Source of the DNA: Methanobacteriota archaeon | GTDB taxonomy: Archaea; Thermoplasmatota; Poseidoniia; Poseidoniales; Thalassarchaeaceae | Assembly: GCA_002718995.2 (NCBI GenBank) | Contig: PBGL02000006.1 | Location: 1-64,000, forward strand | DNA: 64,000 nt | Direction of reading: 5' to 3' | Shown here: positions 3,599-55,953 of the stretch, piece by piece | How positions within the stretch are numbered: position 1 is the first letter of the stretch | Layout: each line of letters starts with the position of its first letter | The notes under the pieces: model-generated | Databases searched by the model: none | The model's input: the letters and a program-made list of their open reading frames with translations, nothing else | What the model was told of the DNA's origin: nothing | Position numbers and translations under genes: made by a program

Positions 3599-3985
3599 AT
3601 GCCCGGAACGACACGAGTTGAGATTAGGACACTGAAGGTGGGAAGATATGTCGCGATTGACGAGAGCGCGTACAAGATACTGGGAATGAGCAAGTCGAAA
3701 CCAGGAAAGCACGGTTCGGCAAAGGCTAGAATAGAGCTGGAAGACATCTTCACGGGTCAGAAGAGGAGCCATGTGGGAACTGTTACCGACTCCATCAACG
3801 TGCCAATGATAGAGAAGGGGTCAGCTATCGTCACCCACATACAGGGAAATGAGGTCCATGCCATGGACAACAAGACATACGAGACACTTATTCTTCCGAC
3901 TGATCCAGAGCTAAACTTGGAGCCCGGAGGAGAGATCCAGTGGATGGAAGCCATGGGCAGGTACAAGATCACTCGAGACCACTGA
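3599..3985 (+). CDS. eif5A: Translation initiation factor aIF5A
   Basis: A 128-residue IF5A homologue, the usual archaeal length, which helps ribosomes through difficult peptide bonds such as polyproline. The hypusine loop reads SKPGKHGSAK, with Lys37 the residue expected to be modified by deoxyhypusine synthase. The N-terminal SH3-like domain covers roughly residues 1-70 and the C-terminal OB fold follows. The ATG at 3599 gives the normal family N-terminus. The gene stands alone after the hairpin region. No deoxyhypusine synthase gene is in the window, but a deoxyhypusine-hydroxylase-like gene lies at 54.3-54.8 kb. Confidence 0.97.
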   Translation: MPGTTRVEIRTLKVGRYVAIDESAYKILGMSKSKPGKHGSAKARIELEDIFTGQKRSHVGTVTDSINVPMIEKGSAIVTHIQGNEVHAMDNKTYETLILPTDPELNLEPGGEIQWMEAMGRYKITRDH

Positions 3986-53535: not shown

Positions 53536-54339
53536 ATGATGAGCTGGATGGATGTTTTAGGTAGAGTTTCATTCTCAAACTGTGACCCTATTTTCGATGG
53601 AATTGACCAGGGTTGGTCGGTCCTACCGGCACCTCCAGCTTGGCTCACAGGGCACGTCCTCAGAAAGGACTGCCTAACAGCCCCAATACCAGCTGCTGAC
53701 TACGCTTTGCACCACGATGAATTATTCCTACTTCCAGATTTGGGCATCGTTAGTAGCGGAGATGTTGGATCAGTCCTTCTTTTTGGCTCAAGACCACTTG
53801 AAAGTATGAGAGACATTGCTCTTCCATCAGACTCTTCCACGTCCAAGGTTCTTCTAAGGTGGGCACTCAAGAACAGGGGACTAGATCCAAAATTCGTAGA
53901 CTCTGGCCCCGATATCGACACAATGCTGGAGAAATGTGACGGGGCCTTGTTAATTGGCGATAGATCCCTGATGGCGTCAAGGCAATATCCCGATCTAGTA
54001 AAACTAGACCTCGGAAGAGAATGGAATGACTCCACTGGCTTGCCCATGGTTTTCGGTGTTTTTGCTGCTAGAAGGGATGCCCCAGAAGAGCATCTGAAGA
54101 AAGCGTATAATGACATGATGACACAGCTAACAAAATTTGAGTCAGATGAAAGTTGGAGGACTGAGGTAATTTCTAGATCATCAGAGAAACTGGGATTCCC
54201 CTACGACAGAATGGACGACTATTTCCAACGCGAGGTCAGGAATAGGATGACGCCCAGAGACGTAGAGGGATTGACTACCTTCCTGGAAGTTGCCTGCGGA
54301 ATTGACAAGGGTCCAAAGTGGGCATTTCATTCTGAATAA
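53536..54339 (+). CDS. mqnA: Chorismate dehydratase MqnA
   Basis: A 267-residue periplasmic-binding-fold enzyme that dehydrates chorismate to 3-[(1-carboxyvinyl)oxy]benzoate, the first step of futalosine-dependent menaquinone synthesis. Family features are GRVSFSNCDPIFDGI at the N-terminus (a divergent form of the NxxP start), LTAPIPAADYALHHDE, LPDLGIVSSGDVGSVLLFGS, and LDLGREWNDSTGLPMVFGVFAAR. It pairs with mqnE in one operon, and mqnD lies 0.5 kb downstream on the other strand. ATG 53539 is an alternative start. It overlaps the convergent gene end by 13 bases. Confidence 0.92.
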   Translation: MMSWMDVLGRVSFSNCDPIFDGIDQGWSVLPAPPAWLTGHVLRKDCLTAPIPAADYALHHDELFLLPDLGIVSSGDVGSVLLFGSRPLESMRDIALPSDSSTSKVLLRWALKNRGLDPKFVDSGPDIDTMLEKCDGALLIGDRSLMASRQYPDLVKLDLGREWNDSTGLPMVFGVFAARRDAPEEHLKKAYNDMMTQLTKFESDESWRTEVISRSSEKLGFPYDRMDDYFQREVRNRMTPRDVEGLTTFLEVACGIDKGPKWAFHSE

Positions 54340-54806
54340 TTGAGTCTTTTACTTGACACCCATTCCAGCAGATCCAAAGCGACCTCGCACGACTCTGCCA
54401 CGACAATGTCCCTATCATCCTTGAATTCTTCAAGAACGCCTAGAGCAATCCTATCGCCTATCGCACCCAATGCCTCGGCTGCTTCATGCCTTACCATGAC
54501 GTCCTCATCCATGTCCCTCAGTCTCTCAGTGAGGTATGGAATTGCATGTGAATCCTGCATTTGCCCCATGACATAGGCGATCTCATGCTTCAATAGGGCA
54601 GAGTTAGAAGAAAACGCTGCCGCTAGCGCATCTATCGAGTCATCTCCGCCTATGTTCCTCAATGCGAACAGTGCCCTCATCCTTTGGAACATCTTCTCAT
54701 CCTCGTCGCAAATCGTAATTCTTAGGCTGGAAACGTCAGAGTCACTACTGGGCGGTGCCGGATCAACAGAATCAAACTCACTCATTTCTGGCCGGTCTTC
54801 TACCAT
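54327..54806 (-). CDS. Half-length deoxyhypusine-hydroxylase-like HEAT-repeat protein
   Basis: A 159-residue HEAT-repeat protein. Two His-Glu motifs, LLKHEIAYVMGQMQD (His74-Glu75) and MVRHEAAEALGAIGD (His107-Glu108), are 33 residues apart. Recalled human DOHH has four HE motifs as two pairs with this same 33-residue spacing and nearly the same surrounding words (SALLKHELAYCLGQMQD, MVRHEAGEALGAIGD). The stretches SVDPAPP, RALFALRN and ESCEVALD also recall DOHH. DOHH hydroxylates deoxyhypusine on IF5A with a di-iron centre held by both halves of about 300 residues. This protein has one half, so a homodimer could rebuild the site; that is inference. The ATG follows the mqnD stop directly, with AGGTGA overlapping, so the two are coupled. 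Confidence 0.75.
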   Translation of the reverse strand: MVEDRPEMSEFDSVDPAPPSSDSDVSSLRITICDEDEKMFQRMRALFALRNIGGDDSIDALAAAFSSNSALLKHEIAYVMGQMQDSHAIPYLTERLRDMDEDVMVRHEAAEALGAIGDRIALGVLEEFKDDRDIVVAESCEVALDLLEWVSSKRLNYSE

Positions 54807-55667
54807 CTACTCACCTGATCCAATGAATTTAATCGAGTCTACATCTAACGTTTCTCTAACCATTCCTATTCTTTGCCCCTCCTTCAGGAATAGGCGAATG
54901 GCATCCCTGCCGTCCTCCCCGTAGTCTAGAGTCCTTTCGTTGACGTACATTCCTACAAATTGCCGATTTGTGTCGTCGTCTATCCCTCTTCCCCACTGTT
55001 TGGCAAATTCAAGTGCAGCGTACGGATTCGCTAGTGAGTGTTTGATACTATTTCTAACGTCCTTAGTTAGCAATTCGCATAATTTCTCCCCTAGATCCTT
55101 CCTCACAATATTCCCACCGAGTGGGAGAGGTAGACCAGTTTTCTCATTCCACCAAATTCCAAGATCCAATAGTAATTTCACACCTTCGGACTCCCATGTA
55201 AGCTGCCCTTCATGGATAATTAATCCCACATCGTAGTCTCCTTTACGGACGGAAGGCAATATCTCGTCAAAGGGAACGACCTCGACCTCGACCTCGCCCC
55301 ATGCCAATCTCAATGCAAGGTATGCACTGGTACCAAGGCCTGGTATCGCTATCTTCGATTTCTTGGCTTCATCGATCGTCATGGTCCTATTTGTAATTAG
55401 CATTGGGCCATAACCTTCACCCATGGAAGCCCCACAGTTCATCAGATGATACTTATCAGAGATTTCTGGAAATGAATGTATGCTTACTGCAGATACTTCG
55501 TATTCCCCGTCAAGTGCGTGCCTGTTGAGCGTCTCAATATCAAGGAGGACATGCTCATACCCTCTACCGCCAGTATCGATAGTCCCTGTCGTCATTGCAT
55601 GAAACATGAAAGCATCATCTGGGTCAGGTGAATGGCCTACTCTGAACACTCTCGCCTCATCACTCAT
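54807..55667 (-). CDS. mqnD: 1,4-dihydroxy-6-naphthoate synthase MqnD
   Basis: A 286-residue periplasmic-binding-fold enzyme that cleaves cyclic dehypoxanthinyl futalosine to dihydroxynaphthoate. The N-terminal VFRVGHSPDPDDAFMFHAM is diagnostic. VSAVSIHSFPEISDKYHLMNCGASMGEGYGPMLI, IAIPGLGTSAYLALRL, and IIHEGQLTWESEGVKLLLDLGIWWNEKTGLPLPLGGN carry the active-site His and family core. ATG 55667 is chosen; the frame extends upstream to 55847 without similarity. Together with mqnE and mqnA this gives three futalosine-pathway enzymes within 3.4 kb. mqnB and mqnC are not in the window. Confidence 0.95.
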   Translation of the reverse strand: MSDEARVFRVGHSPDPDDAFMFHAMTTGTIDTGGRGYEHVLLDIETLNRHALDGEYEVSAVSIHSFPEISDKYHLMNCGASMGEGYGPMLITNRTMTIDEAKKSKIAIPGLGTSAYLALRLAWGEVEVEVVPFDEILPSVRKGDYDVGLIIHEGQLTWESEGVKLLLDLGIWWNEKTGLPLPLGGNIVRKDLGEKLCELLTKDVRNSIKHSLANPYAALEFAKQWGRGIDDDTNRQFVGMYVNERTLDYGEDGRDAIRLFLKEGQRIGMVRETLDVDSIKFIGSGE

Positions 55668-55755
55668 GTGCCTTCGACATACAACGCATAGAAAATTCCT
55701 TGCTTGCACAATTATGCATGACAACAGTGAATAGCCATAGCTGACTCCCCGATTT

Positions 55756-55953
55756 ATGCCTGACCCTACCAAGCTTTCTACGGCTACTGGCCAACTTGGC
55801 CCTATATGTTCCGTCACTGGTAGGGCGTTGACATTCTCAGAAGCCATTGTGGTCGATGACGAATTCGTTTGCTATGAGGCGTACCTAGAAATGACTGGTA
55901 CCGAATCAGCTACAGATTCTAGAGAAGTGCCAACTAGTCTTGTTTTAGAATAG
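55756..55953 (+). CDS. Small Cys-containing protein of unknown function
   Basis: A 65-residue protein. The centre, GPICSVTGRALTFSEAIVVDDEFVCYEAYLEMTG, has two Cys in a spacing and flanking pattern vaguely like half a LIM-type zinc module, but two more ligands are missing. No family recognised. An AT-rich AATTATGCAT lies about 30 bases before the ATG and no ribosome site is seen, so a leaderless transcript is possible. It is divergent from mqnD and precedes priS by 38 bases. Confidence 0.55.
   Translation: MPDPTKLSTATGQLGPICSVTGRALTFSEAIVVDDEFVCYEAYLEMTGTESATDSREVPTSLVLE

Follow-up and report, generated by a model that had tools for sequence, protein, structure and literature searches.

A half-size, one-arm homologue of deoxyhypusine hydroxylase in Poseidoniales and other Thermoplasmatota

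Introduction

Deoxyhypusine hydroxylase (DOHH) carries out the last step in the hypusine modification of the translation factor IF5A, and its reaction requires O2. In the human enzyme (4d4z, 4d50), two HEAT-repeat arms are fused within one chain, which thereby carries four HE motifs. The two arms cooperate in forming the binuclear centre (PMC8153317), and all four HE motifs are required (PMC11203672).

Hypusine in archaea represents a gap that is decades old: several archaea carry the modification, and papers from 2016, 2018, 2020 and 2021 describe archaea as being without a known DOHH homologue (PMC5178350, PMC6105217, PMC7773846, PMC8153317). A first-pass annotation of the DNA analysed here had started from the view that archaeal aIF5A usually stops at deoxyhypusine, which stands for euryarchaea including Thermoplasmales (PMC5178350) but not for crenarchaea, whose aIF5A has true hypusine (PMC6105217). 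Chemical analysis of cultured Thermoplasmales found deoxyhypusine and little or no hypusine, and Poseidoniales are not among the taxa listed (PMC5178350). For S. solfataricus, no DOHH-like partner was found (PMC6105217).

The gene described here lies in a 64,000-nucleotide stretch of DNA, referred to below as the window, whose source genome measures 1.48 Mb and is 86% complete. The genome belongs to the Poseidoniales (Marine Group II), which are among the most abundant archaea of the surface ocean. Judged by sequence and a structure model, the new element would be the presence of the DOHH family in archaea, in a one-arm form. A search of open papers found none that treats Poseidoniales and hypusine together, and prior notice elsewhere is possible.

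Results

A half-size protein with one pair of HE motifs

The gene, referred to here as half-DOHH, occupies 54327..54806 on the minus strand including its stop codon, begins with ATG and encodes a protein of 159 aa (P0001). The first-pass annotation had placed a 159-residue frame at these positions, without giving a strand, and had described its product as a half-size DOHH-like protein. The frame is present in the sequence, as is every motif word that had been quoted from the protein. The two HE motifs do lie 33 residues apart, beginning at H74 and H107: His74-Glu75 (54582..54587, minus strand) is part of KHEIAYVMGQMQD (residues 73-85), and His107-Glu108 (54483..54488, minus strand) is part of MVRHEAAEALGAIGD (residues 104-118). 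They are preceded by the lead-in SVDPAPP (residues 13-19; 54750..54770, minus strand) and by FALRN (residues 47-51), and are followed by ESCEVALD (residues 138-145).

Half-DOHH aligns without gaps with the C-terminal half of human DOHH, and all four HE residues of that half are identical: His74-Glu75 aligns with H207-E208 and His107-Glu108 with H240-E241. In the N-terminal half, the corresponding pairs are H56-E57 and H89-E90, and the HE spacing is identical to that of a DOHH arm. The alignment also gives identical residues at P152, N184, P223 and I249 of the human protein, which are the sites of reported disease missense variants (PMC11203672). The likeness had originally been described as one to the second human half. 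This is true of SVDPAPP, which occurs in human DOHH only before the second half and not before the first, but overall identity is about equal for the two halves (48% for the C-half and 47% for the N-half).

Among 72 homologues, both HE motifs are invariant (72/72), and the lead-in is strongly conserved (D15 and P16 in 72/72, P18 in 71/72). When all 125 distinct homologues are considered, each of them contains both motifs in the form HE-x29/30-RHE, so the possibility raised at first pass that the HE residues vary among homologues falls away. The description as half-size is equally apt for the family as a whole, since 125/125 of these proteins consist of one arm. Neither a second DOHH-like gene nor a separate N-half was found in the source genome at its 86% completeness.

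Family assignment by sequence and predicted fold

In a phmmer search against the PDB, human DOHH (4d4z) was the top match (249.6 bits, E 8.9e-74), and its arms each aligned separately with half-DOHH, with 117 and 131 bits. Among the non-DOHH proteins listed, a designed alphaRep had the highest score for a single stretch, ~43 bits. A profile made from 72 homologues likewise ranked DOHH first (E 1.8e-103), and in both searches the similarity covers a full DOHH arm and lies above that to all other HEAT families. An AlphaFold (AF2) model of half-DOHH (pLDDT 92.6, pTM 0.87) predicts the HEAT-arm fold of DOHH: Foldseek returned 4d4z at rank 1 (E 2e-11, TM 0.86, 48% identity), and the runners-up, alphaReps, had a TM of ~0.66. 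The likeness to human DOHH noted at first pass is borne out by alignment, and in HMM and structure searches alike the scores of generic HEAT and PBS-lyase proteins lie well below that of DOHH.

Half-DOHH has PBS-type HEAT repeats in common with NblB, CpcE and CpeY, which act in phycobilisome degradation or as lyases, and its matches in Pfam and NCBIfam are confined to HEAT_2, HEAT_PBS and, weakly, phycobilin lyases. One might conclude that half-DOHH is just another PBS-lyase or generic HEAT protein and that its likeness to DOHH is repeat similarity alone, a reading to which we give next to no chance. No NCBIfam model was matched at its cut-off; the best score of the phycobilin-lyase type, obtained with the NblB model, was 35.9 bits with a cut-off of 300 bits, and the CpcE structure scored 14.6 bits. 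Human DOHH, by comparison, surpasses all other PDB chains in sequence as well as in fold. Moreover, SVDPAPP, FALRN and ESCEVALD are conserved although they lie outside the HEAT repeat consensus. A generic HEAT or PBS-lyase identity is rejected on the NCBIfam, phmmer, profile and Foldseek results taken together.

By sequence and predicted fold, half-DOHH belongs to the DOHH family. It has the HE motif pair of one DOHH arm at the correct spacing; human DOHH, in contrast, combines four HE motifs and two fused arms in one chain. Because half-DOHH consists of one arm and no second half was found in the source genome, we class it as a one-arm variant with homology to DOHH, as distinct from a canonical DOHH.

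Distribution, selection and loss

Half-DOHH genes are present in 113/146 Poseidoniales genomes and in 17/21 genera of the order, a few of them as fragments. Among 293 sampled genomes of the phylum, nine carriers lie outside the order, scattered sporadically over six Thermoplasmatota families. Across 84,980 species genomes, a scan returned 238 relatives, of which the best 80 all come from Thermoplasmatota or from apparently mis-titled bins; no two-arm DOHH from a prokaryote is among these 80. Viral contigs yielded no relative of half-DOHH.

The homologues diverge down to ~40% identity with the HE residues all kept. In most close pairs, dN/dS is ~0.02-0.06, with 0.18 in one pair, and half-DOHH is under purifying selection. 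Low dN/dS, the presence of orthologues in most Poseidoniales genomes and the complete retention of the HE motifs identify it as a conserved gene and not as a chance frame. Contamination of the assembly by eukaryotic DNA was ruled out, given the number of carrier genomes and the common neighbourhood of the gene where this was examined, including a single-contig chromosome of 2.06 Mb (G002, CM001443). One contig from a bin titled Rhodobiaceae (L078, CALDQY010000261.1) encodes a half-DOHH with 96% identity to Poseidoniales proteins; this contig is probably mis-binned.

Several Poseidoniales genomes counted as non-carriers have mqnD and, downstream of it at the same locus, frame-shifted or short remnants of half-DOHH (L154, L155, L156 and L159). 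These remnants imply that the gene was lost more than once, and its repeated loss implies that it is not essential. The pattern fits a step that is useful but dispensable; yeast likewise remains viable when LIA1 is missing (PMC8153317). At the locus L152 (G009), the first 26 half-DOHH codons run into an unrelated long frame.

Gene neighbourhood, hypusine pathway and oxygen

In the window, half-DOHH follows an mqnD-like gene (54807..55847, minus strand; Pfam VitK2_biosynth PF02621, E 7e-67) whose TAG stop stands directly before the half-DOHH ATG, so that the two genes are probably co-transcribed. A convergent mqnA-like gene (53536..54339, plus strand; PF02621, E 5e-48) overlaps the 3' end of half-DOHH by 13 bases. 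Throughout the Poseidoniales contexts examined, mqnD is a conserved neighbour of half-DOHH, and mqnA, an MqnE/MqnC-like radical SAM gene and a primase gene are found nearby. The mqn proteins of the window had no match beside half-DOHH in the nine non-Poseidoniales loci, and the linkage to mqn genes is therefore a feature of Poseidoniales and not of the half-DOHH family at large. In several Poseidoniales, a small cysteine-containing protein is encoded close to mqnD, half-DOHH and the primase gene, in the window at 55756-55953 (plus strand) and at L155-L159 downstream of mqnD; one example is PHEHITLAQAPNGEIGPRCEKCG...

The presumed substrate, aIF5A, is encoded in the same window (3599..3985, plus strand; TIGR00037 above cut-off). 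Its modifiable Lys37 (codon 3707-3709, plus strand) lies within PGKHGSAK and is intact, in agreement with the first reading. Deoxyhypusine synthase, with SWGK and GGGISKHH, is encoded elsewhere in the source genome, and its family is present in 285/293 genomes of the phylum; neither the synthase gene nor that of aIF5A is adjacent to half-DOHH. Most Poseidoniales genomes have two matches to the synthase family. A second, divergent member (G000:C2:39972-40871, L149; 147 bits) has SWEK where the synthase has SWGK and GGGISGDF where it has GGGISKHH, lies alongside an aminotransferase-like frame and may be a polyamine-related paralogue.

All nine carriers outside Poseidoniales encode COX1, the subunit I of haem-copper oxidase, which 55/211 of the non-Poseidoniales genomes have (Fisher p 3e-6 in a test by genome, which ignores shared ancestry within families). 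Counted by family outside Poseidoniales, COX1 was found in 6/6 carrier families versus 12/42 (p 2e-4). Its presence in every outside carrier is as an O2-dependent enzyme would require.

Discussion

We propose that half-DOHH is a one-arm DOHH that forms a C2 homodimer with a di-iron centre and hydroxylates deoxyhypusine on aIF5A, a reading to which we assign a probability of roughly 0.7. The homology comes directly from the searches described above; the dimer, the iron, the activity and the substrate are inferred. Where eukaryotic DOHH has two fused arms, half-DOHH has a single HEAT-repeat arm, and two identical chains would pair as a C2-symmetric dimer. The four HE motifs of a di-iron centre of the human type would then come from His74-Glu75 and His107-Glu108 of both chains. 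Deoxyhypusine synthase would put deoxyhypusine on Lys37 of aIF5A, and the di-iron centre would use O2 to hydroxylate it to hypusine. Given one arm, invariant HE motifs and no partner gene, a homodimer is the simplest arrangement, as the first-pass annotation had also reasoned. Points that weigh against this reading are the repeated loss of the gene, its separation from the genes of aIF5A and the synthase, with mqnD as its conserved neighbour in Poseidoniales, and the deoxyhypusine of cultured Thermoplasmales.

The final modification predicted for half-DOHH carriers is the same as in the Sulfolobus hypusine pathway, which operates without a known DOHH. The genome of S. acidocaldarius, used as a control, gave no HEAT_2 match, so the crenarchaeal hydroxylase is probably unrelated to half-DOHH, and the hydroxylase of Sulfolobus would still remain to be found. 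For the carriers, half-DOHH is a concrete, small and expressible candidate for an archaeal DOHH. Hypusination of their aIF5A is now testable, as is the descent of a two-arm enzyme from a homodimeric one-arm enzyme. Studies of the peroxo-di-iron chemistry of DOHH would, in addition, gain a simple model in the one-arm enzyme.

Half-DOHH might instead be a di-iron hydroxylase of the DOHH fold with a different substrate, such as one in the futalosine route to menaquinone, and its position directly after mqnD, with mqnA and the MqnE/MqnC-like gene close by, would suit such a role in the Poseidoniales contexts examined. We regard this as improbable, because the mqn genes are not found beside half-DOHH in the carriers outside the order, because the source genome encodes both the synthase, which occurs phylum-wide, and aIF5A, and because the likeness to human DOHH extends beyond the metal ligands over the whole arm. 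It is also conceivable that one arm cannot hold two irons and that half-DOHH is a non-catalytic HEAT binding protein derived from DOHH, such as a chaperone of aIF5A or of the synthase. The single HE-motif pair per chain would agree with this, and human DOHH truncated after the first arm (p.G102Kfs*6) is inactive (PMC11203672). However, a scaffold needs none of the four HE residues that are invariant in 125 proteins even at the lowest identities, nor would it call for COX1 in every carrier outside Poseidoniales, and we see only a slim chance for this explanation. The hydroxylation of deoxyhypusine on aIF5A by a homodimeric half-DOHH is therefore the reading that we prefer.

With regard to its origin, we suggest only tentatively that half-DOHH is a one-arm form from before the duplication in DOHH. 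Aerobic Thermoplasmatota would accordingly make hypusine with a homodimeric di-iron hydroxylase, and the tandem fusion of such a gene would have given rise to eukaryotic DOHH. The archaeal protein is nearer to either human arm than these arms are to each other (40%), and at 129 compared sites it matches only the human N-arm at 19 and only the C-arm at 20, with 9 sites common to the human arms alone. Such a pattern is what a pre-duplication relative would be expected to show. Alternatively, the archaeal gene could go back to a eukaryotic DOHH that was gained through horizontal transfer and trimmed to its second arm, which would be compatible with the same activity but which we consider unlikely. 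SVDPAPP, which the archaeal proteins share with the second human arm but not with the first, would speak for such a transfer, as would the free tree, which places the human C-arm within the archaeal rows (96/75) and the N-arm outside them. The eukaryotic sampling of these trees consists of one human sequence from a database and one approximate yeast sequence, which serves as a lead only, and a tree that holds both human and yeast arms together as a clade apart from archaea was not rejected (p-AU 0.59); nor was the same constraint applied to the human arms alone (p-AU 0.38). The near-equal distances to the two human arms and the even split of arm-specific sites also argue against a transfer of the second arm. 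The archaeal diversity is deep, with proteins from six families in addition to Poseidoniales at ~40-50% identity, and this likewise weighs against such a transfer.
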